Source: Owenia fusiformis
Lineage: Eukaryota > Annelida > Polychaeta > Sabellida > Oweniidae
DNA: 64,000 nt
Direction of reading: 5' to 3'
Assembly: GCA_903813345.2 (NCBI GenBank)
Contig: CAIIXF020000005.1
Coordinates: 21,021,375 to 21,085,374 of the forward strand
Within the stretch, counting starts at the first letter, position 1; every line of letters starts with the position of its first letter. Made by a program: the position numbers and the translations under genes. A model generated the notes under the pieces. The model saw nothing but the letters and a program-made list of their open reading frames with translations. It was not told the origin of the DNA and did not search any database. Positions 2,555-58,156 of the stretch are shown here, in pieces.

Positions 2555-3711
2555 TTATCCCATCGAACGAAGTTCGGAGGGATATAGGGAACGCCTCCGT
2601 CCGTACGTACGTACGTACGTACGTACGTCCCTCCGTCCGTCCGTCCGTCCGTCCGGGCAATAACTCAAATACCGTTGGCCCGATTTTGTTCATATTTTGT
2701 ACACATATACCCTATGGGGGTAGAAGTTCTGCTCGAAAGCCGATTTTCAAAATGGCCGCTCATTTCAAAATGGCGGCCATTTTAGTGCCGAATTTACAGT
2801 AATTTAGGTGCAATATGTAAAACTGTAGTAGCAATATGTTTTAGATGTAAAAAAATTATATAGGACATTAATAAAGCTAGAAATGTAGATATTAAAGAAG
2901 CACATGGCAGCCATCTTGAAAAATGGCGGCCTTTACTCGTTATTTTACGATTTTTGCTGTAACTCGAGAAGTAGTGGAGCGATTTTGTACATATTTGGTA
3001 TGTGAATACTATAAACATGGCACACTGTCTAAAGACACTTTTGGTAGAAGGTGGCCATTTTAAAAATTGGCCGCCATTTTAAAAATGGCCGCCATTTTAA
3101 CCTATTTTACTATAACTGGAAAAGTAGTGGAGCGATTATGTTCATATTTGGTATGTGAATATTATAAGGATGGCACACTGTCTAATGACACTTTTGGTAG
3201 AAGGCGGCCATTTTTCAAAATGGCCACCATTTTAACGTATTTTGCTATCTCGAAAGGTAGTGGAGCGATTTTGTTCATATTTGGTATGTGAATACTAAAA
3301 GCATGACACACTATCCTATGACACTTTTAGTAGAAGGTGGCCATTTTGAAAAAAAATTTGAAAAATGGCCGCCATTTTAATGTATTTTATAATAATTCGA
3401 AAAGTAGTGACGCGATTTTGTTCATATTTGGTATGTGAATACCGTAAGCATGGCACACTGTCTAATGACACTTTTGGTAGAAAAAATGGCGCCATTTTAA
3501 CGTATTTTACTATAACTCGAAAAGTAGTGGAGCGATTTTGTTCATATGTATGTGAATACTATAAGTATGGCAAATGGTCTAATGACACTTTTGGTAGAAG
3601 GTGGCCATTTTGAAAAATGCCTTCCATTTTTGCTATATACTTTGTTTGTAAAAATGCCATCCATGGCTGTTCGATGGGATTCGCTACGCTTTGGCGTTGC
3701 CGTTGTTCTGG
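2555..3711 (+). mobile_element. Helitron-like non-autonomous element, family B, copy 1
   Basis: The element lies between an A at 2,554 and a T at 3,712, starts TTATCCCATCGAACGAAG and ends GTTGTTCTGG, a CTRR-type 3' end. Its 5' end folds as a hairpin (ATCCC..CGAAC-GAA-GTTCG..GGGAT). Near the 3' end GTTCGATGGGAT is the inverted partner of the 5' terminus, followed by a small hairpin (ACGCT-TT-GGCGT). The middle carries about five tandem units of 120-160 bp with the recurring phrase TTGGTATGTGAATACT and blocks of ATGGCCGCCAT, next to a TACG/TCCG microsatellite. No target duplication is seen. The layout resembles Helentron-associated HINEs such as pearl. It encodes no protein I can recognise. Confidence 0.75.
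2600..2655. repeat. TACG/TCCG tetranucleotide microsatellite
   Basis: Runs of GTAC-type and TCCG-type tetranucleotides sit 45 bases inside the 5' end of the family B element. A matching tract occurs at the same place in the copy at 30,344, so it is part of the element rather than chance. Confidence 0.9.
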
Positions 3712-3755
3712 TTTATTTCGAAATCTGTCAACTAATAGCAGAGTTATGTACTGGA

Positions 3756-3850
3756 TAAAGCATAAGAATGAGATTTTATAAGAAATAATACACCGAAGGC
3801 CGAAGGCCTGAGGTTATTATTTCTTATCAAATCGAATTCGAATGCTTTAT
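3756..3850. repeat. Imperfect palindrome of about 95 bases
   Basis: The left arm contains ATAAGAAATAATA and the right arm TATTATTTCTTAT, with the centre CGAAGGCCGAAGGCCTGAGG. The pairing extends outward to AAAGCAT / ATGCTTT. It could be a tiny foldback element or a site that forms a cruciform. No target duplication was found. Confidence 0.7.
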
Positions 3851-5740
3851 CTTACTTAAATCACACACATTCTTATAACAGGTAAATGGTATATTGCAGG
3901 TAAATGGTCAATGATCTAATCTGGAAAATTTTATTTCTTTTGTGTTGACTGTTCATGTAGGGGTAAGTGGTTTGATACATGTAAGTGAGTGAGTTCTTTT
4001 GAGTTGACTGTTCATGTAGTTATATAGCCAATTAATTGTAACAACAAAAAGAGTTGGTTGCATTGACCTCATGAGTGTGAGTTGATTTAAGTGACTGAGT
4101 GGGCTATAATTAGTCTAGCTTCAGTGCACTACAGGTGACCGTCCAGTCCAGAACATTGCATTTGAATACAGCAGAATATTTGTAAGTAAGATAAGATCAA
4201 TGATGTAGATAGCAACAAAAATTGATAAATTGTTTTATTCTAAAGAATGCACAGTAACAAGAGAAGGGTACATGTATTTTTGTATATTGTTTTTAGGGAA
4301 TGAAAACTATCAAAAACTGTCAATGGTCATTTATGTCTCACTTGTTTTTGATAGCTTGCCAAGTGTACATTCTTTAAAAACAATAGAAAAATAATGCACT
4401 TTCCTTTTGATAAAACCATACATTCTTAAAAATAAACCACAGCAAATTCTATTGTGTTGCTACCCAAGTGGGATTTAAAGACTAATAAATGCCATTTTTT
4501 AAACAGCCAGTTTAGAGCCAGAAAGTAGATTCAAACTGCAACAACATTATGCAAATTAGCTAGACGTATCTAGGTTAGTAGCACACGTATGTGGGTTAGT
4601 AGGTTTGCTCTGTCAAGGCCGCGCATGTATCAATATATAAGCAGGTCTCGGCCGTTTCAGCATACTTCATACAGGTATGAATCGTTACGTGTACTTTCAC
4701 GGAATCCACGCAGATTGAAAAATGTTGATACATATTTGATCATTTCCATTTACTAGTATTAAGCCTCAATTCGTAATTCTTAAAATCGCGGATTCGGTAG
4801 TATTGAATCTCTAATAAAGATGGCGCGAAAGTTTTTCCTTATAAGGTCAAAATATTTCCCATGATGCAGTTCGCGGGGGAACAAAATTTTTCTACCTTGT
4901 TTTTCCCCGTTGGTTTAACATGGGGATTTTCATACCCATTTTTCAAGCGATATTTTCGATCGAATCTCCATGCGATCGGAGAAAACAAACTATCAGAAAC
5001 AATTAGTCTTTTAATAATCTTTATATAACATATATTTTTTTTCATTTTATTGGCTCCTAACGGGGTGAAAACAATGATTGAAAATGGGAGTATATTCCGG
5101 AAGAGAAGAAGTCACGTGACTAGTCGCCATATTGGAAAAAGCAATTCCATTCGACTTTCAACACGTTCATGCCAATATTACCGCACTACAAACTGTAACA
5201 TCGATGCAACAACTGAATAAAAGTACTCATCTTCATATTACATTATAGAGTTACGTTGAAAACCCACAAACAACTGAGCATTTGACCAAAGAAGACACGT
5301 CGCTATTATCTAGGTCAAGTTTAGTGGTTCGAAAGCAAATCTTTCATACTCGTTTCCGAATTTTGTTGTTAATTGTATAATCTTTTATTGATTAAATCTG
5401 GTATACTGACTATTAATTCAATGACAAAGAAGAAGAATTCCGATGGTGTCATTTTTTATTTAGCTTGCGGGTGTAAAAACAAAATTGCGTAATTAATTTG
5501 ATTTAGAACTTTCGGGTCTCACAAATAGCTACACGAAATGCATCGTTGAAAAATATTGACCAATCAAATTTTGTCCTTTTTGAGTACATATATGCACCAT
5601 ATATGCGAACGTTCTGATTCAAAGAGCGAACAGCGAAATGGAGAATTATATTACAGCGGAAATATTACATTTTGCGTCTGAAAACCTACTTACTTCAACC
5701 TGAGACTAACATAAACAGATAAAAGGAATTTTAAACTTTA
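3851..5740. other. No gene seen
   Basis: No coding exon, RNA gene or bounded repeat is supported. Open frames are short and lack family signatures. Confidence 0.5.
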
Positions 5741-5751
5741 TCCGAGAGTTG

Positions 5752-5788
5752 TATCTCCCGTGTCGCGCCACCCGCGACACGGGAGATA
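5752..5788. repeat. Perfect 16-bp stem hairpin
   Basis: TATCTCCCGTGTCGCG and its exact reverse complement flank a 5-base loop, CCACC. This is the most GC-rich and most perfect small hairpin in the window. It may be the core of a short foldback or a structural end of a degraded element. No second copy was noticed. Confidence 0.85.
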
Positions 5789-6600
5789 TAGTATAGTCTC
5801 AGCTTCAACATAGGAGGAGGAATGACATGTACATCATACAAACTTCATTCAAATACATACAGTAATCAACTCATAATTATAAAGAAATTCTTGAAACCTT
5901 TATTGCAATTGCAAATGCGCATAGAAGACTTTATTTCATGTATTTGGTTCCGTAATACTTGTCAAACTATATGCCTTCATGCACATTAGACTGCCAAGAA
6001 CGTTTTTATAGCGATCTACCACGGGCAATAGATCTACTACTAAGTTTTGTTTTTTCGTGGATAATGACAAATATTCTACCATTTCCCTTTCCTTCCCATT
6101 TCCCAAGGAAAAATCTTTTTAACTGAATCTTTCACAGATTTCATATCGCAAATAAACAGTATCGCATAATATAATCGACAATGTTTTGATTAAATATACT
6201 GGCCATACTAACTGACTAATAATTGATATATCTTGTTGATACTAGGTTCAGTCTATTTTCGTAATTAAAAATCAGTGATTTAAATGCTAAACCTAATTTT
6301 GAATATTGTTTATCCAAAGTAAAATCGGTTGTCTCAGTGCGTTTGAGATATCAAACATCATACTTTCAATAGAAATAAAAATGTATTTCAAAGATCGGTG
6401 TTTCAGTCTTAAGCGCAGTATTGATATATTTAAGTATTGCACTACGCTGGAGCCTAGAAAGTATAAAAATGACTTTTTAATTTAAACCAGCGTAAAATTG
6501 AATTTCGAATTATAATATTTGCTTGAGTCGTGTTAATAGACCTTCCAGGGCTGTTGTATTTGGGCGATAATAAAAAATAAATACTCTTAATAAAATTGAC
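5789..6600. other. No gene seen
   Basis: AT-rich sequence without supported exons or repeat boundaries. Confidence 0.45.
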
Positions 6601-6605
6601 GCACG

Positions 6606-6730
6606 ATAAGGCAATTGCCGTATTATGCTTTAATAGCGCTGAGTTTCTAGACATGCGCGTTTGGAATTAAAATAAGACGATACGGCAATTGCCGTATCGT
6701 CGTTCAATTGCAATATGATACGGCAATTGA
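6606..6730. repeat. Three copies of a CGGCAATTGCCG palindrome
   Basis: The central copy (6,679-6,698) is the perfect 20-base palindrome GATACGGCAATTGCCGTATC. Degenerate copies lie at about 6,608 and 6,717. Function is unknown; dyad symmetry and clustering are the only evidence. Confidence 0.7.
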
Positions 6731-6744
6731 GCCCATCGTCTCCA

Positions 6745-6895
6745 CTGTATTCACACCTACCCCCGCGTAAGCGAGCTGGAAAAATTCTAGGTGTCCAAAA
6801 CCTGCCAGTGTTCACTGAAGCTGTCCAAAGTTTGAAGGAAGGTGTTCAACATTTGGAAGTCACTCATGTTAGATGATCCCAAGTTGACAGCCCTG
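6745..6895 (-). mobile_element. Fragment of the CAGGCCTGTCAACT MITE family
   Basis: The stretch at 6,841-6,895 matches in reverse complement the left end of the element at 20,826-21,323, including TTCAACATTT..AAGTCACTCATGTTAG and the end CCCAAGTTGACAG..CTG. It directly abuts a fragment of Helitron-like family C at 6,896, so it probably inserted into that copy. The other end is not recognisable. Confidence 0.6.
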
Positions 6896-7156
6896 CATTC
6901 AGTGACCTTCGAAAGGTCAAAAAAGTTGATTTTTGGATGTAAATTTTGGTCAGCTTAATCACAAAAGACCTTACTGAGCTCTGAATAAGTAAAATTTTCA
7001 AGGTCAAAGGTCATCAAACTAGGTCACACAACTGTGCTATGTAAGTTTATCAAAGTTCGAGATGACAAATCCAACTCAATATTTTTGTTTGAAAGTCAGG
7101 GTATACATTCCTCTGAAAGTTCCAAACTGTGTGAGCACAGGACCGTGGGTCCTTAT
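6896..7156 (+). mobile_element. 3' fragment of Helitron-like family C
   Basis: The sequence matches the last quarter of the fuller copy at 33,271-34,236. It contains TTCAGTGACCTT, the TTTTCAAGGTCAAAGGTCA stretch, the subterminal CTGTGTGAGC and the terminal hairpin AGGACC-GTG-GGTCCT. The rest of the element is missing to the left. Confidence 0.75.
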
Positions 7157-7612
7157 TTCTATTTGATGCGAAATTATACAACATTTTGTATTAAAATTTG
7201 ATCTATTTACTGCTAGAAAGATTTATTACATTTTAGTAATTCATATTATTGAAAGGCTTTCCGAATAATATACAGCCAAAATCATAAAAAGTTAAATAAA
7301 AAGGGACTCATTAATGAACCTTGTTTGATTCCTAAAGAGATGATCGCTAACTTGGTGTATTATTTAAATTTGAAGCTAATGAAAGTATTGTATTATTAGG
7401 AATATTCTTATATATTTTAGACAAAAGAGGGTGATAATATTAATATCTGAGTTGTACATAAATCAAATGTGTTCATGTAATGATGTCATGAAATTCTTCC
7501 TTACCCCCTTATTTAGTTGTTTAAGCTTCAGTACTCAAAGTTGTACAAATAGAGTCATGAATTACACAGACTCATTAGTAAATATATTTGTTTGGAAGAC
7601 CTAATCCCAATA
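7157..7612. other. No gene seen
   Basis: AT-rich sequence with no supported feature. Confidence 0.45.
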
Positions 7613-8216
7613 TACAGGGTGGGTCAAAAAACGCCACTTTTCATTCAATGCAATGCTATAACTTTTTAATTTTTGATACAAAATCATAATTTGCATACCA
7701 AATGAAACTTGAGGTTGTTATCTAGCCATGGAGCATGAATTACACACTTTTACTTGAATAAAATATGTCACCAGCGTCTCACTTAAACATGTGGTGTGCC
7801 ATGAGAAATAAGCATAATTTGCAAAATATTCCTGAACTGATACGCCCTGATGACCGCCAAGCTAATAGCCCTAATGCAAACACCAGTGAGTATAGGGTAT
7901 GGGAAGGTCTCCAGGAGATGGTATGAACGCACCCAATCTAAAAGAAATTGCTCAACTAAAGCTGGCACTTAAGATACATTGAAAAAAATACAGCTAACAT
8001 TTCATTGATACTGTTATATCAGCAAGGCGACTAAAACTAAAATCTATCAACAAATAGGGTGGCGGACCAATTGAACTCCTCTTGGAGGACTTGTTACATT
8101 ATATTATTAATAAGAACCCCTGGCACTATATAACTGCAAAATTTGGGGTATGTGGGTTGGAAAATAAAAAAGTTATAGTGTCTTGAAAAAAAAGTGGCGT
8201 TTTTTCAAATTGCAGT
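7613..8216. mobile_element. Degraded Tc1/mariner-type MITE
   Basis: The left end reads TA then CAGGGTGGGTCAAAAAACG. The right end carries the inverted partner (GTGGCGTTTTTT) but its last bases are decayed. A TA target and a CAGGG terminus are typical of Tc1/mariner non-autonomous elements. No transposase remnant is visible inside. Confidence 0.6.
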
Positions 8217-8239
8217 TTGGCTTTTAAACAAGTACTTTT

Positions 8240-9340
8240 ACCACTACTGTTGACAATTTCAGCTTTAAAATACACCCCCCCCGCAAGGACCTTATCATGC
8301 ATTTCTCTGTGAAGCGTGTCTTCAATTCAAAAAACATATTTTCTCCAGACATTTTATGCAAATTAGTTTCTAAGATCGCGTGCCAGGCATTTCTGGTATT
8401 TAATGTCATTATATTGGCATATCCTGTAAAGTTTTTAAGGTTGAATGCCTTTCATTCCTGACATTTATTGTCACAGCCATTTTGTGCACAAAAGTTTTTT
8501 CAGCTAAGAATGCCTGATGATATTTCTGACATTTATTGTCAAGGGCATATCTTGCACATCAGTTTTTAAGGTTGTGTGCCTGGCGTTTCTGATATATATT
8601 TTCAAAGCCATTTTCTTAAGGTTGCACGTCTTGAATTCCATTTACTGTCACATAGGCACATCCCAAAAATTGCAACAGTTTTTAAATTAGGCTTATATTG
8701 TATATTGATACCAGTTGAAAAACATATCAAAAATATAGAAAAATATATGCAGTGGACAAATATGAAATGTCACATTCCAGGTACCCCCCTCCAAATTTGA
8801 GTATGGGATTGTAAATATATTTTTATTTCAAAATGGAATACTCTTGTCAACTAAACGAGTAATATTATGATAGTTTACTGACATAAGAGCAACTAAAAAT
8901 TGTTAACCAACTATTTGAGTTCAATAATTGGCATTTCTAGCGCCAAATATCTGAAAATAGGCCATCAAATAGCCCGAATTTAATATAACAATGTATTTAT
9001 TTCTGTATCAATTCACCAGAATTGCATGAGAAATATCAAGGAGGGTATCGTGCACCTGAACATTGTCTTTGATAAGTATCAGGGTCATTAAGTAAATATT
9101 GAGCGTGAAAATAATATTTGAAATTTCAATATTTTACCACACCCACTTTTGGGGTGACCTTACTTTTGTTTAATTACTTCCAAGATATGTCATATTTGAA
9201 CTCAATAGCACAACTAAATTATTTGTAAAGGCTTATTTTGTCCTGAAAACAGTTTTTTGAGGTTTTCAGGAAAGGATTATGTAAAAAAAAAGTAGAAAAC
9301 AGCAAATGCCAGGTGAAATATAGGGGAAGCCCTACTTCTA
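8240..9340 (+). repeat. Left arm of an old inverted duplication
   Basis: This arm matches 12,230-13,130 in reverse complement. The best-kept part is around 8,660-8,790 (AAAAATTGCAACAGTTTTTA, AGTTGAAAAACATATCAAAA, GCAGTGGACAAAT). Weaker matches continue inward past ACCCACT / AGGTGAAAT phrases near 9,150 and 9,320. Both arms also carry degenerate 75-base repeats ending in GACATTTATTGTCA. Divergence is high by eye, so the duplication is old. Confidence 0.6.
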
Positions 9341-9505
9341 GTTGATAACAGTTAAATTATCAAATGTTTTTTCCTTTTAAATTCAATTTGATATATAATA
9401 CACCTTTTCTGGTAAAACAGAGAACGATTTGTTACAATCAGTGGTCAAAAAATGTCCTTGAAAAGGCAACAAAATGTTAAATATCCCTGTCCCTGACATC
9501 AGTTT

Positions 9506-9961
9506 ATTAATATGAGCCAAAAAAGGTAACCCAACCAAATGTTTGTTAATAACCCAGTCATTCAGCATGGGTTTGACATCATATTTGGCACAATTACCTT
9601 GTTCAATGTTCTTTCATTCTACTAAGTATCATTGATCTATCCTTAATAGTCACGATTTTATGGCCATTTACAAAATGTGCTCAAAATATCGAAATGTGCC
9701 TAACTGACTGGACATCAATACCACCAGTTTTTTTTTTTTATCTGTGGACCTTTTTTCGATACTAACAACACTTGAAACATTAAAACAAGAGATAAGAATG
9801 AAGATGAGAGTCATAACACATGATTTTTATGCTCCTGATTTGAACAACAACGCACGATACGTTCAAGAATCAATTCTGCCAAATAGGACACTAAATCCAT
9901 GCAGGATGATTGGACTGGATTATTAAGATTTGTTTGGGTTACCTTTTTGGCTCGCCCTGTA
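9506..9961 (+). mobile_element. Palindrome of two mariner 3' ends
   Basis: Both ends carry GAGCCAAAAAAGGTAACCC in inverted orientation, the right one running into GCCCTGTA. The arms pair over about 170 bases each. The right arm includes the end of a Tc1/mariner transposase (ETLKQEIRMKMRVITHDFY, around 9,774-9,830). The left arm, read on the minus strand, is the 3' flank of the same family seen at 20,430-20,763. The element is therefore two 3' ends joined head to head. Confidence 0.65.
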
Positions 9962-10334
9962 TTAAGGAAAAATTGTTACTTTTGACTAAGGTGTTCTTAA
10001 CACCACAGTGATATTGAGAAATGAAATGAAGAAGTTCAACTGAAGAATGTTCGATTTCAAGATGAAATTCAATAAAAAATGAGGAAAAGGTTTCTACATT
10101 AATAAATCCTCCTGAGTTAACTTGTGTAACGCAAAGTAAATCCCTGGTCTTTATACAGGGCCTGGTTCGATTATGTTATGTTTATTATCAAAAATGCTGC
10201 CTTAATTTTGTAATCTTAACCTTCATATATGTGTCTTACTTATAGAGAGCAAAAAAGAATGCTGATTAAATAAGCTTAATACTATTATGTTGTAACAACA
10301 ATCAGTTACAACCTTGTCTATCACCAGCCTTCAT
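9962..10334. other. No gene seen
   Basis: AT-rich spacer with nothing supported. Confidence 0.45.
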
Positions 10335-10590
10335 CAGGGGCGGATATGGGAACCAACAGGGGGGGGGGGCAAATGTCAGGTCTGAGAAAAAAACTTCCGC
10401 GGAAAAAATTTTGGGCCCCTAAAACCCCAAATTTTGAAATATTGAGACCCATTTTATTCGATTAAAAAATAAGGCTTTAAAAGACCAATTTATGACCAAA
10501 AATGCCCACTTTTTGGGGCCTTAAGGCCTTTTTTGGGCCCAATTTTTTTCTGGGCCCGCCCAAGGGGGTGGGAGGGGCCCAGATCTGCCA
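10335..10590. mobile_element. Small hAT-type MITE
   Basis: The left end CAGGGGCGGATATGGG and right end CCCAGATCTGCCA are inverted partners of the kind seen in hAT elements. The interior is unusually G/C-homopolymeric with many GGGCCC and CCCC runs. A degenerate duplication (CCTTCAT / GTGTTCAT) may flank it, but the match is imperfect. Confidence 0.55.
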
Positions 10591-11059
10591 GTGTTCATTA
10601 TTTAGTCATCATTATTCTCATGATCAGTAATGGAGGTATTTGCACAAATGCCCTTGCATACCTTACATGTCAAAGAACAGTTATTTCATTTTTCTACAAG
10701 AACATCTCATAGAAATACAATCTGCCTTACACACACAATGGATGATCTCTGAGAAAGGGGAGCTACATTTAGGCAATCGGTACATAGTTTCGCTGCTTAT
10801 TTCCCAGACCAATTATAATGGAGGCAGTTTATTTCCCTCCCACTCCTGGATCTGATGGTACACTCTGTAACTGTGGTATTCCGCAGCATCAGAAAATGGA
10901 GGAAGAACACGGGGCTGCAATAATTCAGATCTTGCTGCTCTCTTTTAATAGAATTTTAGAAGCCTAAGATAATTTAGGGTTTCACCATTTTCCACCATAA
11001 ATTGACAAAAGAGCATGTTCCTCTGCAATGACAGAGTTGCTTGCATTTCACTGGTTTTC
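10591..11059. other. No gene seen
   Basis: Contains one 71-codon frame (10,640-10,855) without family features. Nothing else is supported. Confidence 0.4.
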
Positions 11060-13573: not shown

Positions 13574-13666
13574 GCCCACACTCCCACAAAAAAGATATTG
13601 AAACTGTATAATGCAGAGACTGCAAAGTAGCTTCTCTGCAAATATCATTTTTGTGGGAGTGTGGGC
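13574..13666. repeat. 93-base hairpin
   Basis: GCCCACACTCCCACAAAAA is repeated in inverse at 13,643-13,666 with one or two mismatches, giving a stem of about 25 bp and a loop of about 40. It may be a very small foldback MITE. A precursor-RNA role is possible but has no support. Confidence 0.75.
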
Positions 13667-30241: not shown

Positions 30242-32245
30242 GGTAAAGATTAAAAGGTGGATTGGATTGAGTGGATTGGATTCATGTAAAAGGTGGATTG
30301 GATTGGGAATCTTCAAAATATGGATTTTCCTTAAAAAGTTTTATTATCCCATCGAACGAAGTTCGGAGGGATATAGGGAACGCCTCCGTCCGTCCGTCCG
30401 TACGTGCGTACATCCGTCCGTACGTCCGTCTGTCTGTCCGTCTGTCCGTCCGGGCAATAACTCAAATACTGTTGGCCCGATTCTGTTCATATTTTGTACA
30501 CATATACCCAATGGGGGTAGAAGTTCTGCTCAAAAAACAATTTTCAAAATGGCCGCTCATTTAAAAATAGCGGCCATTTTAGTGCCTATTTACAGTAATT
30601 TAGGTTCTGCATATAAAACTGTAATAGCCATATGTTTTGAATGTAAAAAAGTTATATAGGACATTGATTAAGCTAGAAATGTAAATAAAGAAGAAATACA
30701 TGGCAGCCATCTTGAAAAATGGCTGCCTTCGCACGTCATTTTACGATTTTTGCTGTAACTCAAAAAGTAGTGGAGTGATTTTGTTCATATTTGGTATGTG
30801 AATACTTTAAGCATGGCACAATGTTTAATGACATTTTGGGTGCTATTTTACATTTTTTACTATTACTCAAAAAGTAGTAGAGCGATTTTGTTCATATTAT
30901 ATTTTGTTCATATTTTATATGTGAATACTATAGGCATGGCACACTGTCTAATGACACTTTGGGTAGTAGACGGCCATTTTGAAAAATGGCCACCATTTTT
31001 TCGTTTTTTACTATAACTTGAAAAGTAGTGGAGCGTTTTGTTCATATTTGATATGTAAATACTCATGAGCCTTGCACACTGTCTCATGATACTTCGCATA
31101 GTAGGCGGCCATTTTAAAAAATGGCTATCATTTTTAAATTTTTTTACTATAATTCGAAAAGTATTGGAGCGATTTTGTTCGTATTTGATATGTGAATACT
31201 TTAAGCATGGCACATTGTCTAATAAAACCTTCGGGAGTAGTCGGCCATTTTGAAAAATGGCCACCATTTTCATGTGTGTTATTTTACATTTTTTATTATA
31301 ACTCAAAAAGTAATAGAGCGATTTTGTTCATATTTGATATGTGAATACTCGTAAGGATTGCAAATTGTCTTATGACATTTTGGGTAGTAGGCGGCCATTT
31401 TAAAAAATGGCCACCATTTACATGTGCGTGTGTGCAGTTTTTAAAAATTTTATATGTGGCTACTTAAAAGCATATTACTTCTCCTGATGACAACTCAGCT
31501 AGTGAGCAATCATTTTGAAAATGGTGGCCTTTCTTATGTGTGTCATTTTATGATACATAATAATAATGTATTTGCTATATATTTTGTTTGTAAAAATGCC
31601 AGCCATTTCTGTTCGATGGGATTCGCTACGCTTTGGCGTTGCCGTTGTTCTGGTTGATCTCCCTCTAAGTAGATTGGTGCTCTCCTCACTTCCACAATGT
31701 CAAATAATAGATGTAATATTATATTATTTTGCTTGGGTGGGCTAGAAGGGTGATCTGGTACCTACTTTCTGATACACAATCTTATTCATTCCAAGAGTGA
31801 TCTTAGACATTTAATAAATCATAAGGCAGACTTCAAGATCCATATCATCTGTTTTCAATCCAAACTGAATATAGCAGAAATGTTTTGCGAACATTTACAC
31901 ATAAATTTGAATGACAGCTTTTATCTACAGATTTATGTTTACAAAAGTTGTTTTACAAGGGAAAGTAGTTAAATACTTAAGAGTATCCATAAACTAATTG
32001 GAGTATGTATTTGTCATTGCTTTGTTGTATTTGTCATTGCTTTGTTCTGATTTCTCAAAAGGGACATGTAATACTGTAGAGGGAAATTGCTCAGAGGGAG
32101 ATCAACAGAAAAATCTTATAAGAAATTCCATATTTTGAAGATTCCCGATCCAATCCACCTTTTACATGAATCCAATCCACTAGATCCAATCCACCTTTTA
32201 CATGAATCCAATCCACTAGATCCAATCCACCTTTTAATCTCTACC
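30242..32245. mobile_element. 2.0-kb DNA transposon with 8-bp target duplication, itself interrupted
   Basis: The ends are GGTAAAGATTAAAAGGTGGA and the inverse of GGTAGAGATTAAAAGGTGGA. TTCTTTAC flanks both sides (30,234-30,241 and 32,246-32,253). Both ends repeat TGGATTGGATTCATGTAAAAGG, and the inverted arms extend over about 120 bases to a TTGATCTCCCTCT block at 31,654 and 32,090. The left arm is split by a Helitron-like element (30,344-31,653). An 8-bp duplication fits hAT, P or Merlin. No transposase is visible. Confidence 0.88.
30344..31653 (+). mobile_element. Helitron-like family B, copy 2
   Basis: It starts TTATCCCATCGAACGAAG after an A at 30,343 and ends GTTGTTCTGG before a T at 31,654. 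Removing it joins AAAAGTTTTA to TTGATCTCCC, which matches the opposite arm of the host transposon. Internal tandem units of 120-150 bp carry TTTGTTCATATTTG and ATGGCCACCAT phrases. The 5' hairpin, subterminal GTTCGATGGGAT and small 3' hairpin are as in copy 1, to which it is highly similar. Confidence 0.85.
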
Positions 32246-35824: not shown

Positions 35825-35976
35825 AAAGCAGAACTTCTCCCCCCCCCTAGAGTATATGTGTACAAAATATGAACAAAATCAGGCCAACGGTATTTGAGTT
35901 ATTGCCTGGACGGACAGATGGACGGACGGACAGAGGCGTTCCCTATATCCCTCCGAAATTCCCTTCGATGGGATAA
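35825..35976 (-). mobile_element. 5' fragment of Helitron-like family B
   Basis: Reads on the minus strand from TTATCCCATCGAAGG through the GACGGAC-type tract and the GGCCTGATTTTGTTCATATT phrase to AGAAGTTCTGC. It is the first 150 bases of family B only; the rest is absent. Confidence 0.8.
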
Positions 35977-42199: not shown

Positions 42200-42208
42200 A
42201 AAAATATG

Positions 42209-47200: not shown

Positions 47201-49654
47201 ATGCTACCTCGGCGCCCAACAATGCGTTTATACCCGGCTGTTTATACTTCATGTTATGCATGTAGTTTCTTGTTTTATTGTTAACACTTAAAAGTTAATA
47301 ATTAAGGGTTAAATTTATCTTCCAGGTATTCAGAAATAGTTGGCTTAGGTCTGTTGACAGTGACGATGACAATTTTGATGGCGAGCTCTACATTCATTTC
47401 GAATAATTAATCTTTAGGCATTTTGCGTACTATATTTAAGTTTATACATTTTTATTTATTAGAGCTAGCATTCTGATTTTTTATCAGAGCCAAGCACTGG
47501 AATGCTTGAAAGAGAGAGTCTTCATATTCAAAAAGTAGTAAAGGCTGTTAATTCCACGATTTAACGCTAGCTTTACATTTCCTTTGCTTTGTTTTATAAG
47601 AAGGTTGAGTTACATGTTTTTAAAAGAACTTGTACCCGAGCGTGTACTATTTCGTTCCCGACCGGGGAATACTGTTCCACTCTCATATTCACTTGGGACT
47701 GTTTTCCGTATGTCTTTATTCTCAATCGGCCAAGTAAACAGTACACAGGGGAGAAATAATTATCTAGAGAACCACGTTCACGTACAAATTGTTTTTTAAG
47801 AAACGTGTGTTTTAACCCTATTATCATCTTAGCAGACGGGGACAAACTTGCAAAAATACATGTAGATTATTGCAGCATGATTATAGATAAAACTGATTAT
47901 TTTAATTAAGCTAATTACTTTCAACGGTTAATTGTGTTGCTTTGTTGTTGATTTTTTTTAATTTTTGACTTATAGTTGCTTTACAAAATTCTTGTTTTCA
48001 TTTCTTGTGACAGTTTTTTTTCTTCATATCTTTGTGCATGGCTACCTGCATGTAGCATGATGATTGACCGGGAATAATCTGACCGGGATAGACGTCCATG
48101 TTTATAACAGAGGCATATAAAGTCAAATGAAAAATTATTGATATGCCTCTGATTATTATGAGACTGGATATTGGCTGCTCGTATATCCATGAGAGGATGT
48201 AAGGGCTATTATTGTGTCACCATCAGAATCGGTGAGAAAATGACATATTGGAGAGGTTAAGCTAACGATGTTTTTCACAACGTAACCGTGAACGCAAAGT
48301 ACAAAAATTAACAAAGGAATGTATCGAGCGCTCATAGTTTTATGCGCGCTTAGTCTACTTCAGATACTCTTTCAGCTTCAGAGTTTCGGGTTTAGAACGG
48401 GAGATTTGAATATTTGACGTTCGGTCAACGGGAACCATTTTACTCGTGTCTATTGAACACTATGCTGTCAATTTTGATTTCGATGCACAGTTGAATTCTT
48501 GCTGAACACGATGATGTATGTCATGCATGATTTAGCGCCAAAAATCTTACGAAACGAGCTCGTTTAAAATATGTATTAGAAAACCAGCTATAAAACCGCA
48601 TCAATGACATACTATAGAATCATTACACGCTATGGTGTAGTCTAAACAAACACTGGATTTGAACGGCTATTTATATGAGAAGGCTACATGAATTTTACCC
48701 TTTGCATTCGTTTGACTTCACTTCTTAAAAGAGAGCTTCGTCTAACTAGACCCTGCACGCAGGGTACATGAATTTGTATATGGTCGAGTGATACGTACAG
48801 GTTCAGTTTCGATTATATATGCAAAGCTTAACCTCTCCATTGTTATAGTCTCCAATAATCATTACTCAAACGTCAAACACCAACCGCCAAACATCGATCG
48901 TCCACAAAAAAAGTTGGAGACAAATGTGTCTACTTGTGGTGGAGTGGCATAGATATAAGACCCCCTCCCAAACAGTTCCTAGATTATTAAGGATTAATAT
49001 ACTTCAAGGTTCTTGCATTTGTTTATAATGAGGATAAAACCTTCGTTCCGTTATTGAAGTTCCACAAGATCATGAAGCCTGAATAGTTGATTTCACTTTG
49101 TCAAAAGTCATCATGGATGATTGCTGTTGGATAGGAATGAAATAAATAAAAAAAACTTGCCTATTGAATGTCTGTGCGAATGGTATCAAATAATTTCGAT
49201 TTCTCAAAAGTTGCTTTTCCTCTCACTTCCTTTTATCTATATAATCACATATTAATTGGATCAATACAGACTCGATTTCCTCTGCCAACAATGCCACTGC
49301 AATGTAATGACGGGAAACGGTCGCTGGAATAAGTAATCAGACGTCTCAATTTGTTGAACGTTTGTTTTTGTTGAATGTTACTAGAAAACAATGCGTAATT
49401 CTGATTTTGATATTGTTGCAATGCACATAAAGCATAGTTCAGCATTTCAAGTCATGATGAATGTACATTGTACATGCACAGTTCATTTGATAAAGGGGAA
49501 GGGGTGGCGTAAATAATTTCTGAATGCCAAGAATGTCAGTCCATGTTGGGTAGGGAAATAGAAACGGATTAGGCCCACGGGGTGGGGGTAAAACCGCACC
49601 CCTTGAAGACAGGTTTCTGACGGGCCTGACCCCCTCCCACCGGCAAAAGCAGGT
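47201..49654. other. Mutator-like element interior, no gene seen
   Basis: Short frames only. A small palindrome GGGGTGGGGGTAAAACCGCACCCC-type sequence lies near 49,580. Nothing else is supported. Confidence 0.4.
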
Positions 49655-49975
49655 TATGAATAATGTAGCCAGTCCATGTTAGTTTCTCGGAGATATCCTT
49701 GAAGAATTCTCAACTTATCAAGACAGATAACAATATAAATTGTAGATGGCAAAATAATCTGATCTGATTTTGCTTGCAATTTGTCTGCCTTTAACAGTCT
49801 AATTTCATAGTTATGCAATAAAAATCCCCATGGCAAAAGCAGGCAGCTACTTATACTTTAAAGTGTTTTAGACGGTCCATGATAGTTGTCTCTGGGAGTT
49901 GTCTGAAGAATTCTCAACATATCAAGATAAGAGCTGATAATATAAAATGTAGATGGCAAAATAAAACGGCATGCA
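49655..49975. repeat. Two-copy direct repeat of about 100 bp
   Basis: GAAGAATTCTCAAC..TATCAAGA and TGTAGATGGCAAAATAA recur at 49,699-49,756 and 49,909-49,966, with GGTCCATG / AGTCCATG before each. The same phrase order suggests a tandem duplication with a 210-base period. Confidence 0.7.
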
Positions 49976-50425
49976 CCTCTAAACATATGCTCATTAATTA
50001 ATATGGTTACAAGCAACAGAAGGATAATCTTTAAATGATTGCAACGCATTATCTATTTTAGCTGAAATCAAGTTATTTCTAACTCATGCGACAAAATGGA
50101 AAATGGTTTAGAAAATAAATCAATAAGATCAACGTTATACAATGTTGAAAACAAAACAGATAGTAAAAAATCTTATTCTAATTTAATTCCTAAATAAAGT
50201 CTCAACCCTCCAGACACTGGTGACATTTGACCGCATTTGAAAGACTTTATCTAATTTAAACAATCAAATCAAATCAAAAGTAAAACATGCAAACAGGTAT
50301 AACTGCTTATTTGAGAATATCCGAGGAAATGTGCATGTGTCCGGGATGTGTGACGCAGATTTCAAGTCCTACATCGCCCTTGAATACCCTGAAAAGAAAT
50401 CTGCTTGTGATAAGCTATTCTTTTT
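49976..50425. other. Mutator-like element interior, no gene seen
   Basis: No supported feature. Confidence 0.4.
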
Positions 50426-50652
50426 ATACCATGGTCAGAGCAATATCTCAGTATATAATAGTAAGTGATAAATCACATATTTGGGATATGGATGATATTG
50501 GGATTAGAGGGATGACATGGATATCAACCCGGGTATTTATTCAAAAATTTTCAATTTTCAAAAAAGTTATTTTTTTCAAAATTTTTCATTTTTCAAACAT
50601 TTTCTCTCATTCAAAAAGGATTTTAGATATATGTTGCTCTTGACCATGGTAT
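50426..50652. mobile_element. 227-bp MITE
   Basis: The ends ATACCATGGTCAGAGCAA and the inverse of ATACCATGGTCAAGAGCAA flank a TTTTTCAAAA-rich centre. No clear target duplication was found. Confidence 0.65.
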
Positions 50653-52009
50653 AAGGTCGTTATTCACCTGTCAGGATGATATTGAGAATATTCCTCGGAT
50701 GGTATCAATATTTCACTCTGTCACTGCGTTCCCTCTATCATGTGATATTCCCCATAGCAAATCCCTCCTGGTGAATAACTTCTTTGTATATACTTTCAAC
50801 TAATTTAACAATGAAACAGAAACACAATGCATGCCAAACATTATCTACTGTATTATTGTATATCATGGTTATTTCATAGTTTGCACTTGTATTCAGCAAC
50901 TGTGTTTCTCAAACCCAATATGGGATAAACATTTTTAGGGTTAACACGTCAGACTTAACACGTCGCTTGAGGCAAGATGCATAAACTATATAATTCCACG
51001 GCTATAACTTGAAAAACGCCACTGTTGTGTCTATGCCCCTTCTGTATCTTACCCACGGGAACCTACAAAACAGAAAAATATATACATGTAATGACATTAT
51101 GAAAAGGGGAAGTCCCGTCTATATAAATCCCTAGGTTCAAGTCGTGGAAACATCCCCATATTTGCAACAAAACAATGATAAACCAAAGTCGGTAAGTAGT
51201 AGTTGTACCATATGCATGAATTGTAGCTTTTGGGAAGGATGATAAAACGCAAAAAAAATAATTTAAATACTTGGTGAAGTCTGGCATTCATGATCTGACA
51301 GGAAATTTAGAGAAAGCCTTGATTATGATTAAACGTAAAAGCAAAAGTTGACCATTGTATCTTGGAGGTTATCATGACAAATGAATGTTCATTCGAAGAC
51401 GACCACTGAATCCAAATCCAGTTCACTAAAACAATGTATTATAAACAAATAAACTAAATCACTATTACTATTACATGTATTATAAAATAATAAATAGATA
51501 ACGTGTTTTATATTCGTACAATGATGAATACATTGCAGCAAAGAGCTTGAAACAATGTTCACCGTTTATATACAGTTTAAGTTAAACTAAATAACAGCAA
51601 CGCCAAAGCGTAGAAAATTAATATTTGATCTTGAAAGTATTAACATCAATTGCTAAGATTTGAACATTATGCTCTTGATGCAGAACACAATCGTGTTTTA
51701 CTTTAATCGAAGATGTTTATAATCATATCATATGACATTAATGATTGCGTCCCATTTCATGATTATATGGAGATGTTACCTTGACATACACGTATTTTCA
51801 GAAATATTTGTTATCGTTGGTAGAAAACGGTAGATCTGTCGTACTCTGGAAAATGGCCTACCTTCGCCCCTGTCGTGAATTGTGTTTTAACGTTTACTTT
51901 TTATTACCTTTAAATGCTTAGTTTCATCCTTGGTCAGAGGGAATAGCAAATTTGACGTAAATAAACAAGCTTTAGGCTTATTCCTGTTCTAGTCTACTGT
52001 GAAGAAACG
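50653..52009. other. Mutator-like element interior, no gene seen
   Basis: AT-rich; two overlapping minus-strand frames near 51,063-51,291 have no family features. Confidence 0.4.
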
Positions 52010-52146
52010 CATACCCAGTTTTTGGGTACCCGGTTTTTTCGACCGGGTACTTTCTTGACCGGGTACCGGGTACCAAGTTGGAATCCCGCATGGAGGATTT
52101 AGTACCCGGTACCCGGTACCCGGTACCCGGTTTTTTCTACAAACCC
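52010..52146 (-). repeat. Right terminal inverted repeat of the Mutator-like element
   Basis: Mate of 42,714-42,850. By eye the two differ at roughly one base in ten, mostly in the middle (CATACTGGG versus CATGCGGGA). Confidence 0.9.
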
Positions 52147-52155
52147 GTATATTAC

Positions 52156-53479
52156 TCATCAAACACTTGAAACATTACTTTTTTAAAGCTTATTGTTACA
52201 GCTTAATGTTTTTAATTTGCTTTTGTTAGTTAGGATTATATCATTGAACATTTATGAATTTTTGAGCACCATACAAGGTTACAGAACTTCATTTATGAAC
52301 GATTTCAGCAGGGGTCTATTTTACAAAAAATTAAATATTTTTCCGGATAGTTCTTTGATGAAAAGCTAGTACATTTTTAAGATTAAATTACATCATTAAG
52401 GTGTATAAATCATGAAAACGGGTTTCATCCTGATGTCTACAACCTAATTCGTATAACGCCATGTCACAAATGGGGTGGGGGAACATTGACCTCCACTTGG
52501 GGATCTTTATTACTTATATGATTTCAATATTACAATAATGTCGGTATCATTATAAACAGGCACTAAATAAGTGTAGACTATTAAAAATATGTTGACAGCA
52601 AGAAGATTTATACAATTTAAACTGCAAAATGAGATAACAATGGGCTCTAAAATCACAATGATTGGTATAACCATGGGCATTCAATAGAGTGAAAGCCCAT
52701 GGTATAACTAATCAAATGTTTACTTTTTAAGCTTAGTACCATATCCTAACAATTTAAATTGGTTTAAAAACTGAAATAGTTATAATTTAATCATTTGCAG
52801 TTTCTGATTTTTTGAATATCTTAAAATGGTTCAGATTTTCATTTATTGAAGATTTAATTCAAGTCTAATTCAAAAAGATGAATATTTTGTGGATAGTTCT
52901 CAGATCAATTACTATTATTACCACCTTGCCGGGCATGTTCTAGGGGTATTAGTGCTAGTTTAGAAGGCATTTATGTTACTATATCGACCTGAGCAATATG
53001 TGACGTCATAGTGGTGGGCCAATAATGCATTAACGCCCGGCAATTTTCCCCGGGAAATGAGATATCATTCAATGCATATAATTTTTGCTATTTCAGCCCT
53101 GGGCATTAACGGTGGTAATAATAGTAATAACATCATTTCTGCGGGCAATATTAAACAAATACTGGATGATCAGGAGCTGGATATGGCAGAAAACCTATTC
53201 GAGAAAAAAATATTGGGCGAGGCGGTATTAATTAATTTCAATAGAAAGTTTGTGTTCTAGCACTGCCTCATGGGATAGTCTATTTTCTACTAAATAAAAT
53301 AATCAGGGTAAAAGCTTTTCTACTACTAAAGTTATGTGCTTGCAGAGATAGCCCGAATAGCAAAAATCATATATCCTTTCACCCCACATCATATCGTATG
53401 CTTATTGATGTTAAAATCTATTTTTATAAATAGTGGGAAATTCTTAATTCATCTTAGATTATAATTTAAATGTAATATA
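52156..53479. other. Repeat-derived sequence without gene
   Basis: Weakly repeated phrases (ATTTATGAACGATTT / ATTTATTGAAGATTT and GGATAGTTCT) recur at 52,285, 52,350 and 52,840-52,900. A hairpin with CCATGGGC lies at 52,661-52,710. A small MITE lies at 52,910-53,126. Confidence 0.45.
52910..53126. mobile_element. 217-bp MITE
   Basis: The exact 16-base inverted ends TACTATTATTACCACC and GGTGGTAATAATAGTA enclose GCCCGGCA and GGGCATTAACG-type inner repeats. The target duplication is unclear. Confidence 0.65.
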
Positions 53480-53976
53480 ACACCCTTGGTATACGCAGCT
53501 AACGAAAATTGACCGGTACGGGTCAAAAGCTGGACCGGTACGGGTTAACGGTTTTATTTGAATTTAAAACAGCCATAACTTGCTCAATATTGACTTCCTC
53601 GTGTCTAATTTGAAATATATGATGCCTCCCGATGCTTTTAAGTACCCCAATTTTTTACAGATTTTTAAACGGACCAAAAACTCTCTAAATGCGCATTTAT
53701 GCTCTTTTCTCTCGAGAACGACTGTCTCATTTTCACAATAACTTTTATTTAGTACTTCTAACATATAAGATCTATTTTTCCCCATCAAGGTATGATGTAA
53801 ATGACATGCTATTTACATCTTGTGAGTTTCAATGACGCGCGTTTGATTTTATAAAAAATGCCAAACTTTGTGACAAAGAATTTCATCCTGCTTGCAGCGA
53901 GAAGACAGACCGGTTCGGGGCAATAGCCCTCTGTCAATTTCTGTCAATTTTCGTTAGCTGCGTATACCAAGGGTGT
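53480..53976. mobile_element. 497-bp MITE with 34-bp ends
   Basis: The ends ACACCCTTGGTATACGCAGC (continuing TAACGAAAATTGAC) and the exact inverse are flanked by short AT-rich sequence (ATA on both sides). The minus-strand frame inside (53,564-53,788) is not recognisable. The perfect 34-base ends suggest a recent insertion. Confidence 0.85.
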
Positions 53977-54381
53977 ATAATATGCGATCAAATGCTTTTT
54001 CAAGGTTTTAAAATCTAAACAGAGCTCAGTTTTTACAAGTGCTCAACAGGTGAAAACGTATGTAGGAATATAGGCAGAAACAATTGGCAGATCAACGAAA
54101 GCAATATTGTGTACAAAGAAAGTGAACTAAATGGAACCATTATTTTTAATCATTTTGAATGCAAAATATAGTCAGACAGGAGATCTTATTTTCAATTAAA
54201 CAGATAAAATTAATATATCATGCTAATGACCTTTCCAAAAGCCGATTCATAAGACAGTAGATAATTTGTTGTAAACTTCAAGTGTCAATGTCTAATAGTT
54301 TTCATTATTATGGACCTCTGTTAAACCCCTTAATGATAAGTAAACGGTAATGTTGACAGGTCCTCAACGGGTGAAAACGTA

Positions 54382-55449
54382 CAGGGTGATCATTAAGTTC
54401 TGGGAATTGGTATACCATTTCAAGATTTCTCAACCATTTGAGTTGAAATTTTCAGCAGGTGTACATTGTATAATTCTGAATTGACAGAAAATGTTTCATA
54501 TACATATCACTTCTGCAATTTATTTTATTGTAATTATAAAAAAAGTAAAAGTGGTCCGCGGGTCAGCAAATTTTGTCTGATGTTAATCTGAAAATTTCCT
54601 GCCAAACACATTCATCTTGCCTAAATGGTTGCTTCAAACTATTCGTACTAGAGGCAGAACAGTACTCTTGAAATCATTTATTCAGAAGTATTCTTAATTG
54701 CTGAGAGGATCCTTTCATATATAATTGTTTCCATAAGCCTGGACGCAAATGTGTTGTTGACAAACCTAGTCCATAAAGACATGTTCCAAACCTCCCTTTG
54801 GTATCCCTTGAAGATTTGCTCAAGCCGTTGAAATCAGTCCCTTATCGGAATCAAACATATGACCTCTCATATGATGCTTTAGCACCCCAAATGTAGTGAA
54901 ACCCAATGGTGCTTCATCTGGTGAATATTGTATGGTGAATATGGGGCAGTAACGACTTGTGTGAACCCTAATTCTTCAAGAGTAGTATGGGCAGTTTGAG
55001 GAGTGCGAAGGAGCATAGCCATAATGGAGGATAACTCCCCGCTATTTTAAGTCATGATTGTGACTTCATGAGTCTGACGAATGATAAGTAAATAGAGCAA
55101 AGTACACTCGTATATCACATTACAGAAATTACTTTAGAAACTAAAGTTAGAAGTATTTGAAAAAATATAAAAATCACAGAAATATCATAATAATACGTCC
55201 ACCAAATAGGTATTAATCAACCATACTTTTGAATCAAGCAAAATTTGAATTCATTTTTATTTTACTTGACTCGCTACGCCATTTGTCATGTTGCTATAGT
55301 AACAATAATTATCCATTGTGACATCAGATGACAATGAGACTGTTTTATCCAACCCAAAATCACAATCCCCATTTACCTTGAAAATTTCAAGTAAATTGGT
55401 TGAAAAATAATGAAATGACATAAATTCCCAGAACTTAGTGATCACCCTG
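54382..55449 (-). mobile_element. Mariner element, decayed, minus strand
   Basis: The ends CAGGGTGATCAYTAAGTTCT (continuing GGGAATT) and its inverse are flanked by TA. Without it the satellite phrase GAAAACGTATGTAGG is restored. On the minus strand traces of the transposase are visible: TAHTTLEELGF (the region after the second catalytic block, 54,995-55,030) and YSPDEAPLGF (near 54,920), then GHMFDSD. Multiple frame breaks make it inactive. At 1,068 bp it is a little short of a full mariner (about 1.3 kb). Confidence 0.88.
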
Positions 55450-56286
55450 TATGTAGGAATATATGTTTTATCATTTAAACATATCATTTAACAATTGGCG
55501 GATCAAAGAAAAACAAGATGATGTTAAAAGAAAGTGAACTAAATGGAACCATTATTTTTTATCATTTTGAATGCAAAATATAGTCAGACAGACTATCTTA
55601 GTTTCAATTAAACATAAAATCAATATGTCATACTAATAACCTTTCCAAAACTCGATTAATGAGTAGATAATCTGTTGTAAACTTCAAAAATATAAAAATC
55701 TAATATTTTTTATTTTTTGTCAACCCCTGTTAAACCCCTCAATGATAAGTAAATGGTAATGTTGACAGGTCCTGAACAGGTGAAAACGTATGTAGGAATA
55801 TATGTTTTATCATTTAAACATCAAAACAATTGGCAGATCAAAAAAAACACGATGATGTTAAAAGAAAGTGAACTAAATCGAACCATTGTTTTTAATCATT
55901 TTGAATACAAAATATAATCAGACAGACGATATTATTTTCAATTAAACAGATAAAATCAATATGTCATACTAATAAACTTTCCAAAAGCGGATTAATGAGT
56001 AGATAATCTGTTGTAAACTTCAAAAATATCAAAATCTAATAGTTTTGTTGACCCCTATTAAACCCCTCAATAATAAGTAAACGGTAGTGTTGACAGGTCC
56101 TCAACAGGTGAAAATGTATGTAGTAATATATGTTTTGTCATTTAAACATATCAAAACAATTGGCGGATCAACAAAAAACATGATGATGTTAAAAGAAAGT
56201 GAACTAAATGGAACAATTATTTTTAATCATTTTGAATGCAAAATATAATCAAACAGACAATCTTATTTTTAATTAAACAGATAAAA

Positions 56287-57095
56287 CTAGAAAAACAGCA
56301 ACTCCACGGAGTAGCAAATCCCACCGAACAAAACATATTATGCTTATTATAGCTAGTGTAAATGTTGAAATGTTTGTGCACTTTGTGATAGAAGCAGGCA
56401 CAAAGTTAGTTTATACCATTGTGAACTAGGCATCATCATATAAAATTTGAACCAAATCCGTTCACTGGTATATGAGTTATCAAAGATTACATTTTTTACG
56501 AAAATTGGCCGCCATCTTGAAATTCAGCCTTGAACAGAGCTACTGTGTCCCTAGGCATAATCATATAAAATTTCAACCAAATCTGTTATCAAAGATAACG
56601 TTTTTTACGAAAAATTGCCGCCATTTTGAAATTAAGCGGCCATCTTGAAAAAATTTTGTCGAACATAGCTACTGTGTCACTAAGCATCATCATATCAAAT
56701 TTGAACCAAATATTTGAGTTATCAAAGATTACATATTTTTACAAAAAATGGCCGCCATTTTGAAATTAAGTGGCCATCTTGAAAATCTCTTTTTGTGCGA
56801 AACTCCTCTGTCCCTAGGCATCAGCATATAAAATTTGAACCAAATCTGTCAACTAGTATTTGAGTTATCAACGATTACATTTTTTACGAAAAATGGCGGC
56901 CATTTTAAATTGAGAGGCCATATTGAAAATTCCTTCTCGAGCAGAGGTCCTACATTCATAAGGCATAAGCCTATAAAATTTGAACCAAATCCGTCAACTG
57001 GTATTGGAGTTATCGCCCGGACACACGGACAGACGGACAAACGGACGGACAGACGGCTTCTCTATATCCCCCTCGAACTTCGTTCGGTGGGATAA
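56287..57095 (-). mobile_element. Helitron-like family B, copy 3
   Basis: On the minus strand it starts TTATCCCACCGAACGAAG and ends GCTGTTTTTCTAG. It sits exactly between A (56,286) and T (57,096) of a satellite unit with no duplication. The subterminal GTTCGGTGGGAT is followed by the hairpin ACTCC-GT-GGAGT. Its core has four tandem units of 110-150 bp with AAATTTGAACCAAAT and GCCGCCATTTTGAAATT, and a GACGGAC tract follows at 57,020-57,055. Confidence 0.9.
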
Positions 57096-57306
57096 TCAAT
57101 AGGTCATGCTAATAACCTTCCTAAAAACCGATAAGTAGATAATCCGTTGTATATCAAGAATATATGTTTTATCATTTAAACATATCAAAACAATTGGCAG
57201 ATCAACAAAAAACAAGATGATGTTAAAAGAAAGTGAACTAAATGGAAGAATTATTTTTAATCATTTTGAATGCAAAATATAGTCAGACAGGCAATCTTGT
57301 TTTCAA

Positions 57307-58156
57307 CTAGAAAATGGCAACTCCACGGAGTAGCAAATCCCAACGAACACTATATAAATATTAATCTGTACAGTCACAATGTTATATTTACCATCTGCTC
57401 TTACCTTCAATAAATATTTTAAATCATTGTAGTATCATGTAACCATACTTTCAAGATAACTCTAAGTAATGGCGAATTTCTGCTCTAGTCAGCCATTTTG
57501 AATTTTCAGAGGCGCAAATCAGAAAAACAATGCCATAATTGTGATCTACTCTGAAATTCCTTCAATTTGAGTATAATATAGCCATACATGTACTTTTAAG
57601 AGATCAGAAAATAATTGCAAAATTAGGTGGCCATTTTGAATTTTTTGAGGCCCGAATCAAAAAAACGTTACAATATTTGCAATCTACTATAAATTGCCTT
57701 TCATTTGAGTATAATAAAGCTATACTTCAAAAACATCTCAAAATTAACGCAAATTCCTGTTTTCCCGATCCCCCATTTACGGCCCCTGGGGGTAAGGGTG
57801 GAAAACCCGGGATATATGTGAAATAGATAGATGTTGTTAATATAATACCAAAATTTTATCATTTTGGTTTAAAATGAAAAACATAAGATTCTTGCGAAAA
57901 ATTCCCGCCATTTTTAAACTGGCGGCCATCTTGAAAAAGATTTTTTTTTGAGTAAAACTGTTCACCAATATACATCTTTCCACCAAATATGAAGAAAATC
58001 TGCTGACTAGTATTCGAGTTATCTTCCGGACAGACGGACGGACTGACTGACTGACTGACTGACTGACTGACTGACTGACTGACTGACTGACTGACTGACG
58101 GACAGACGAACGGAGGGCTTCACTATATCCCTACAGAACTTCGTTCGTTGGGATAA
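57307..58156 (-). mobile_element. Helitron-like family B, copy 4
   Basis: On the minus strand it starts TTATCCCAACGAACGAAG and ends GCCATTTTCTAG. It sits between A (57,306) and T (58,157) of the next satellite unit; the unbroken unit reads TTTTCAATTAAACAG there. Its core units differ in sequence from copy 3, yet the ends are shared. It contains a pure ACTG microsatellite at 58,040-58,099. Confidence 0.9.
58040..58099. repeat. ACTG tetranucleotide microsatellite
   Basis: About 14 perfect GACT units within the family B element, in the position where other copies have GACGGAC-type tracts. 'pearl' elements of bivalves are known for a tetranucleotide tract next to core repeats. Confidence 0.95.

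Follow-up and report, generated by a model that had tools for sequence, protein, structure and literature searches.

A 64,000-bp stretch of the Owenia fusiformis genome (contig CAIIXF020000005.1, positions 21,021,375 to 21,085,374; the whole stretch is referred to below as the window) contains several copies of a short repetitive element, here called Family B. The element carries a hairpin at each end and a pair of asymmetric terminal inverted repeats (ATIRs) with matched base changes, follows a target rule of the form TNA^TT, and has empty sites without clear duplication. We conclude with high confidence that Family B is a non-autonomous family of the Helitron2 type (HINE), which relies on a Rep/helicase (HUH) protein supplied in trans. 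It is a previously undescribed family of an already known element type. A first-pass annotation of the window had called the family rolling-circle-type and non-autonomous, a reading that is supported here.

Copies and end anatomy of Family B

The window holds four full copies, each lying between A and T, and their boundaries in the sequence are exactly those that the first-pass annotation had given. Copy 1 (2555..3711, plus strand, 1,157 bp) and copy 2 (30344..31653, plus strand, 1,310 bp) belong to the c1/c2 subfamily and end in CTGG, and copy 3 (56287..57095, minus strand, c3 subfamily, 809 bp) and copy 4 (57307..58156, minus strand, c4 subfamily, 850 bp) end in CTAG. Every copy starts with TTATCCC, with no 5'-TC. 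Allowing up to 3 mismatches, the 5' motif matched 4 times in the window versus 0 in 100 mononucleotide shuffles.

As had been claimed, all four copies carry a hairpin at each end and, close to the 3' end, repeat their 5' terminus in inverse orientation. The match is perfect over 12 bp, and the two ATIRs so formed lie 2 bp inward of the 5' end and 30-31 bp inward of the 3' end. In copy 1, the 5' ATIR (ATCCCATCGAAC, 2557..2568) lies within the 5' hairpin (2556-2584), and the 3' ATIR (GTTCGATGGGAT, 3669..3680) is its exact reverse complement, followed by the 3' hairpin GCTACGC-TTTG-GCGTTGC (3683..3700) and the CTGG end (3708-3711), all on the plus strand. The corresponding ATIRs and 3' hairpin are at 30346-30357, 31611-31622 and 31625-31642 in copy 2 (plus strand), at 57082-57093, 56318-56329 and 56298-56315 in copy 3 (minus strand), and at 58143-58154, 57337-57348 and 57317-57334 in copy 4 (minus strand). 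The 3' hairpin is 18 nt long, with one T-T mismatch, and sits ~11 bp before the end in all four. Folding of the 5' hairpins as DNA gave energies between -6.7 and -8.7 kcal/mol, with z scores from about -3.4 to -4.0. Downstream of the 5' hairpin, as judged by eye, each window copy has a tetranucleotide microsatellite followed by internal repeats.

The first-pass annotation regarded this combination as an unusual mixture of Helitron and Helentron traits. A 5' hairpin, ATIRs and a 3' hairpin already define Helitron2 (PMC3627910), and the end architecture of Family B is also resembled by that described for HINEs (PMC4067079, PMC7492417). The combination of 5'-TT and CTAG-3' ends with A/T insertion likewise has a published precedent in proto-Helentron-Pi (PMC4067079). 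A hybrid is unnecessary because the anatomy is that of a described group, Helitron2/HINE.

Genome-wide occurrence and covariation of the ends

The O. fusiformis assembly (498 Mb, 525 contigs) was searched with exact patterns of both ends, which biases the counts toward well-kept copies. The 3'-end pattern gave 3,301 matches and a second, less specific one gave 4,186, with 0 matches for the reversed pattern in both cases. The 5' motif preceded by TT gave 2,833 matches (2,787 + 46; controls 0), and another form of the 5' motif gave 2,307 (control 0). Among full-length matches, identity to copies 1, 3 and 4 was 82-96%, with lower values for partial matches (40 candidates scored per search). No matches were found, and none were expected, in viral contigs scanned with the exact 3' and 5' motifs or in contigs of prokaryote genomes scanned with the 5' motif.

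To these counts we added two smaller samples. Lists of 100 5' ends and 100 3' ends were drawn solely from the start of contig C1. A two-ended set comprised 47 copies, of which the 41 with distinct flanks were retained; its selection demanded a T after C[TA][AG]G and a T directly before ATCCC.

Across the 41 full copies, pairing between the two ATIRs is possible at 485 of 492 position pairs (475 Watson-Crick, 10 G-T), a figure biased toward pairing by the placement of the 3' ATIR at its best match to the 5' ATIR. ATIR position 7 covaries: it is C-G in 26 copies, T-A in 12, A-T in 1 and mismatched in 2, and is thus paired in 39/41, where shuffles averaged 29.5 and reached at most 35. This base has a second partner within the 5' hairpin in the minimum-energy folds, as C-G in copy 3 and A-T in copy 4; in copies 1 and 2 it forms a T-G pair in the minimum-energy fold and is unpaired in the centroid. 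With pairing of this position both within the 5' hairpin and with the 3' ATIR, one base is engaged in two alternative pairings.

The 3' stem is preserved in most of the 41 full copies. One of its pairs covaries (T-A in 28 copies, G-C in 10, G-T in 1, a mismatch in 2); the rest of the stem is nearly invariant. At the same pair, the 100 listed 3' ends have G-C in 51, T-A in 44, A-T in 1, G-T in 1 and mismatches in 3, the remaining stem pairs there being set by the search pattern. The first-pass annotation had described a stem that is kept while its bases change (ACGCT/GGCGT versus ACTCC/GGAGT). This holds for one pair, swapped from G-C to T-A together with changes in the loop, and not for the entire stem.

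Besides the placement bias noted above, two observations temper the structural argument. Considered in isolation, the 3' hairpin folds only weakly, with z of -1.2 to -2.0 and 11 to 26 of 200 shuffles folding equally well. The changes in the ATIRs and the 3' stem come from few subfamilies, so the covariation represents few events.

The anatomy also bears on whether Family B could be a canonical non-autonomous Helitron1, that is, an element with 5'-TC, a single 3' hairpin, a CTRR end and A/T insertion. The CTGG/CTAG ends, the 3' hairpin ~11 bp from the end, and the A before and T after each of the four window copies would all fit such an element. However, TTATCCC takes the place of 5'-TC in all four copies, the 5' hairpin and the ATIRs both fall outside the definition of Helitron1 given in PMC3627910, and A precedes the junction in just 2,202/2,787 5' ends. 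The Helitron1 reading fails on its 5'-TC and no-5'-hairpin criteria and is in that respect already refuted; we consider it highly improbable.

Target rule at the junctions

Junction positions are numbered in the register of the first-pass annotation (host A | element TT). T is present at -3 in 2,787 of the 2,833 exact 5' ends genome-wide (98.4%), and A is present at -1 in 2,202 of these 2,787 (79%). The listed 5' ends agree, with T at -3 in 99 and A at -1 in 76 of 100, and the two bases preceding ATCCC are T in 100 and 95 of them. On the right side, CTRG closes 87/100 listed 3' ends and is followed by T at +1 in 87/87 and by TT in 82/87. Of the 41 full copies, 40 carry T at -3, 33 carry A at -1 and 36 carry T at +2; T at +1 in 41/41 is uninformative, because the selection itself demanded that T.

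The first-pass annotation had taken A/T as the insertion site, and had named copies with boundaries elsewhere as a finding that would speak against its interpretation. As a family-wide rule A/T fails, with about a fifth of the copies lacking A at -1, and roughly one copy in five accordingly lies outside A/T. The T at -3 and the T after the junction are better kept than the A at -1, so the target is TNA^TT and not plain A/T. The breakpoint is ambiguous by one base, TNA^TT versus TNAT^T, because the T's are common to the element and the target. Judged on the sequence, the A/T register is not unique, in that TNA^TT and TNAT^T agree with the same empty sites.

Some ends depart from this rule and count against it. 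These are the 46/2,833 5' ends without T at -3, the 5/100 listed 5' ends missing the second T before ATCCC, the 13/100 listed 3' ends without CTRG, and 22 3' ends genome-wide, at one spacing, carrying a non-T base after CTRG. The denominator for these 22 is estimated at ~2,300, from the ~55/100 listed ends that share the spacing (by eye) multiplied by 4,186.

Empty sites and the question of a target duplication

Empty sites were sought in the window and the fetched loci by joining the two flanks of each of the 41 copies. A junction-spanning match was obtained for 11/41, two of them (L041 and L005) inside other Family B copies. For copies 3 and 4, satellite units without the insertion (55490..56029, minus strand) serve as empty sites. 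Copy 3 matches at 55502-55694 and 55837-56029 and copy 4 at 55490-55651 and 55823-55986, all on the minus strand, and a further empty unit (54078..54273, minus strand) matches the flanks of both. The copy 4 junction is consistent with three empty satellite units, and three units share the register of copy 3, of which two are base-exact across the junction. The site claimed for copy 2, on the opposite arm of its host repeat (32090..32200, minus strand), resembles the joined flanks without being base-exact: ..TTTTTCTG|TTGATC versus ..GTTTTA|TTGATC, with the left side mismatched. No empty site for copy 1 was found in the window or the fetched loci. The first-pass annotation had considered the insertion proven by empty sites for three copies; this stands for copies 3 and 4 and not for copy 2.

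Among the fetched loci, the copies in L071 and L065 have empty sites that are base-exact in the TNA^TT register, and those of the L053 copy are more diverged with the register kept. The L057 copy has a weaker match, to an empty site with a single T.

Some matches do not conform and weaken the case. A fourth, short match to copy 3 has one T fewer, the opposite arm for copy 2 has C, not T, at -3, one diverged L053 match carries A, not T, at +1, the L059 copy is one T short at the left junction, and a weak L042 match (72%, gapped) is three bases short at the junction.

The empty sites bear out the absence of target duplication claimed earlier, in the form of no clear duplication. The same junctions could be described as a short element, ATCCC...CTRG, with a 2-bp TT target duplication (TT flanking it on either side and present a single time in the empty site), and at every TT site this description is formally the same as insertion without duplication. 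Five of the 41 full copies (L008, L047, L051, L057 and L064) speak against it, albeit in small numbers: they have a non-T base at +2, yet every one has TT at its left junction, and under a duplication the two sides should carry the same dinucleotide. The gap between +1 (87/87) and +2 (82/87) in the listed ends is modest, and is poorly explained by later mutation alone. A TT duplication is thus disfavoured, and we consider it very unlikely. Thomas et al. describe the same uncertainty over the junction T's in HINEs (PMC4067079).

Satellite units occupy 54,078-56,030 and 57,096-57,306 of the window, and copies 3 and 4 sit in neighbouring units. The window also contains a fifth, truncated copy, absent from the first-pass annotation, consisting of the 5' end and the first ~150 bp (~35827..35976, minus strand) with changed hairpin bases. 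At L041 on contig C11 (minus strand, ~2,372), two Family B copies of different subfamilies abut head to tail (..CTAG|TTATCCC..) with zero bases between them, an arrangement left either when one copy inserted at the nick site of the other or as a by-product of rolling-circle activity.

Search for an autonomous Rep/helicase partner

The genome contains 58 matches to the Helitron Rep domain (PF14214), some of which are pieces of one place. Of these, 33 are on contigs above C12 (<=660 kb where shown), many of them with open frames of ~3,000 aa.

The search provided no partner, which weighs against the assignment. No Family B ends were present at 30 of the 58 Rep matches inspected with ~1.5 kb on each side, flanks too short to exclude them, and no autonomous element with Family B ends was found among the Rep loci examined. 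In the stretches read at the Rep loci on C6 and C1 (L069-L073), no Family B ends belonged to the loci themselves. The C6 Rep has a Family B copy ~8 kb upstream, in the company of other repeats. For the two Rep matches on C1, the closest exact 5' ends among the matches listed are ~33 kb and ~35 kb away, one of the 5'-end lists used covering the TNATT form alone.

One candidate, the PF14214 match at C11:29,204,960, has a c1/c2-type 3' end just past its 3' region and was rejected as nested. The C10, C47 and C6 copies of this Rep/helicase (RepHel) element stop matching at query 1,233-1,235, and only the C11 copy continues to a Family B end. The 87 bp beyond the C11 RepHel match the Family B copy in L005 unbroken at 95%. 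The stop of the other copies, together with the unbroken L005 match, shows that C11 carries a different RepHel, nested within a copy of Family B.

That different RepHel, near-identical on C11, C10, C47 and C6, ends in ..GGTGACATTTTGTCATGTTAATGCCTTG|T (L075:4690-4800, C11), and its near-identical C6 copy (L074) encodes a PIF1 helicase. Its last ~180 bp recur with 96-99% identity at about 30 other places, among the matches listed, and these are probably its own non-autonomous family. A ~154-bp repeat, its length estimated from the match spacing, forms long arrays after the RepHel loci L072 and L073 (C6 and C1).

Comparison with known elements

The nature of the protein that moves Family B separates two related possibilities. 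In the first, Family B would be a true derivative of Helentrons, mobilized by a Rep/helicase protein that includes an endonuclease; in the second, the mobilizing protein would be a Helitron2 Rep lacking it. In favour of the first are the HINE-like anatomy, the subterminal inverted repeats (subTIRs), the microsatellite and the internal repeats, as described for Cg_HINE (PMC7492417) and HINE-Mo (PMC4067079). Against it, the 5'-TT/CTAG ends resemble those of proto-Helentron-Pi, which is described without an endonuclease (PMC4067079), and the target resembles that of FoHeli1/2, which were grouped with Helitron2 (PMC5148889); none of these likenesses is decisive. A Helentron origin is a real possibility, if short of a probable one.

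Helitron2 as described by Bao and Jurka (2013, PMC3627910) shares with Family B a 5' ATIR located 0-2 bp from the 5' end and contained in a hairpin, a 5'-T, and compensatory changes, the latter noted there in one pair of elements. Unlike Helitron2 in that description, Family B has a CTRG 3' end and a TNA^TT target.

HINEs provide further parallels. Compared by description, Cg_HINE from Crassostrea gigas (PMC7492417) has a 5' subTIR with an inverted repeat, a GTCY/GTCC-type tetranucleotide microsatellite, central tandem repeats, a 3' subTIR with a palindrome, and TT insertion without duplication, all like Family B; unlike for Family B, the Results of that paper mention no T at -3. DINE-1/HINE elements of Drosophila and mites (PMC4067079) likewise show subTIRs, a 3' palindrome, a microsatellite or tandem repeats, and an unclear partition of the junction T's, whereas the passages describing them give a T-rich/TT target with no -3 T rule. 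Proto-Helentron-Pi of Phytophthora infestans (PMC4067079), also likened by description, shares 5'-TT, CTAG-3' and A/T insertion without duplication, and differs in being ~14 kb long and coding, with Helitron-like structural features.

The target resembles that of FoHeli1 and FoHeli2 from Fusarium oxysporum (PMC5148889). These elements have ATIRs, hairpins at both ends, insertion after TNAT and a one-T ambiguity at the 5' end, like Family B. They differ in starting with TCAG and ending with ATTTT, in being full-length elements, and in being fungal. The base after TNAT in FoHeli1/2 is given as T in a legend and as A in the main text of that paper. Family B conforms to the FoHeli1/2-type target (TNNTT in 2,787/2,833; TNATT in 2,202/2,787), a likeness of the target alone.

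Proposed mechanism and implications

We propose that transposition of Family B begins when a Rep protein, presumably of Helitron2 type, nicks TNA^T(T) at the left junction, where TNA is host and TT is element, and that nicking there would precede the later steps. The displaced strand would be extended to the 3' end, where the 3' ATIR may pair with the 5' ATIR and open the 5' hairpin, following the stop model proposed in PMC3627910. This pairing, together with the 3' hairpin just before CTRG, would mark the end of the element, and the single strand would then be joined to a TNA^TT target.

Insertion in this manner regenerates TNA^TT at the left junction, so the target would have the sequence of the next donor nick site. 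This identity of target and donor nick site presumably parallels that of IS91-type HUH elements. We tentatively suggest that T-N-A^T-T is a conserved 5-bp target code of the Helitron2 transposase, common to Family B and the Fusarium FoHeli1/2 elements. Re-created at the left junction from host TNA and element TT, it would make target recognition the same as donor nicking specificity, kept across distant eukaryotes.

Within the open-licence literature searched, we found no publication that describes the -3 T rule for animals; searches aimed at such a target led to the Fusarium paper and otherwise to a plant review in which Tnat names an element. The new detail added here is a target count from ~2,800 5' ends of one genome, in which the T at -3 (98%) is stronger than the A (79%). 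The -3 T agrees with the rule reported for a fungal Helitron2. If general, this rule would provide a concrete nick-site hypothesis for the Helitron2/Helentron HUH enzyme, and a better signature for finding such elements.

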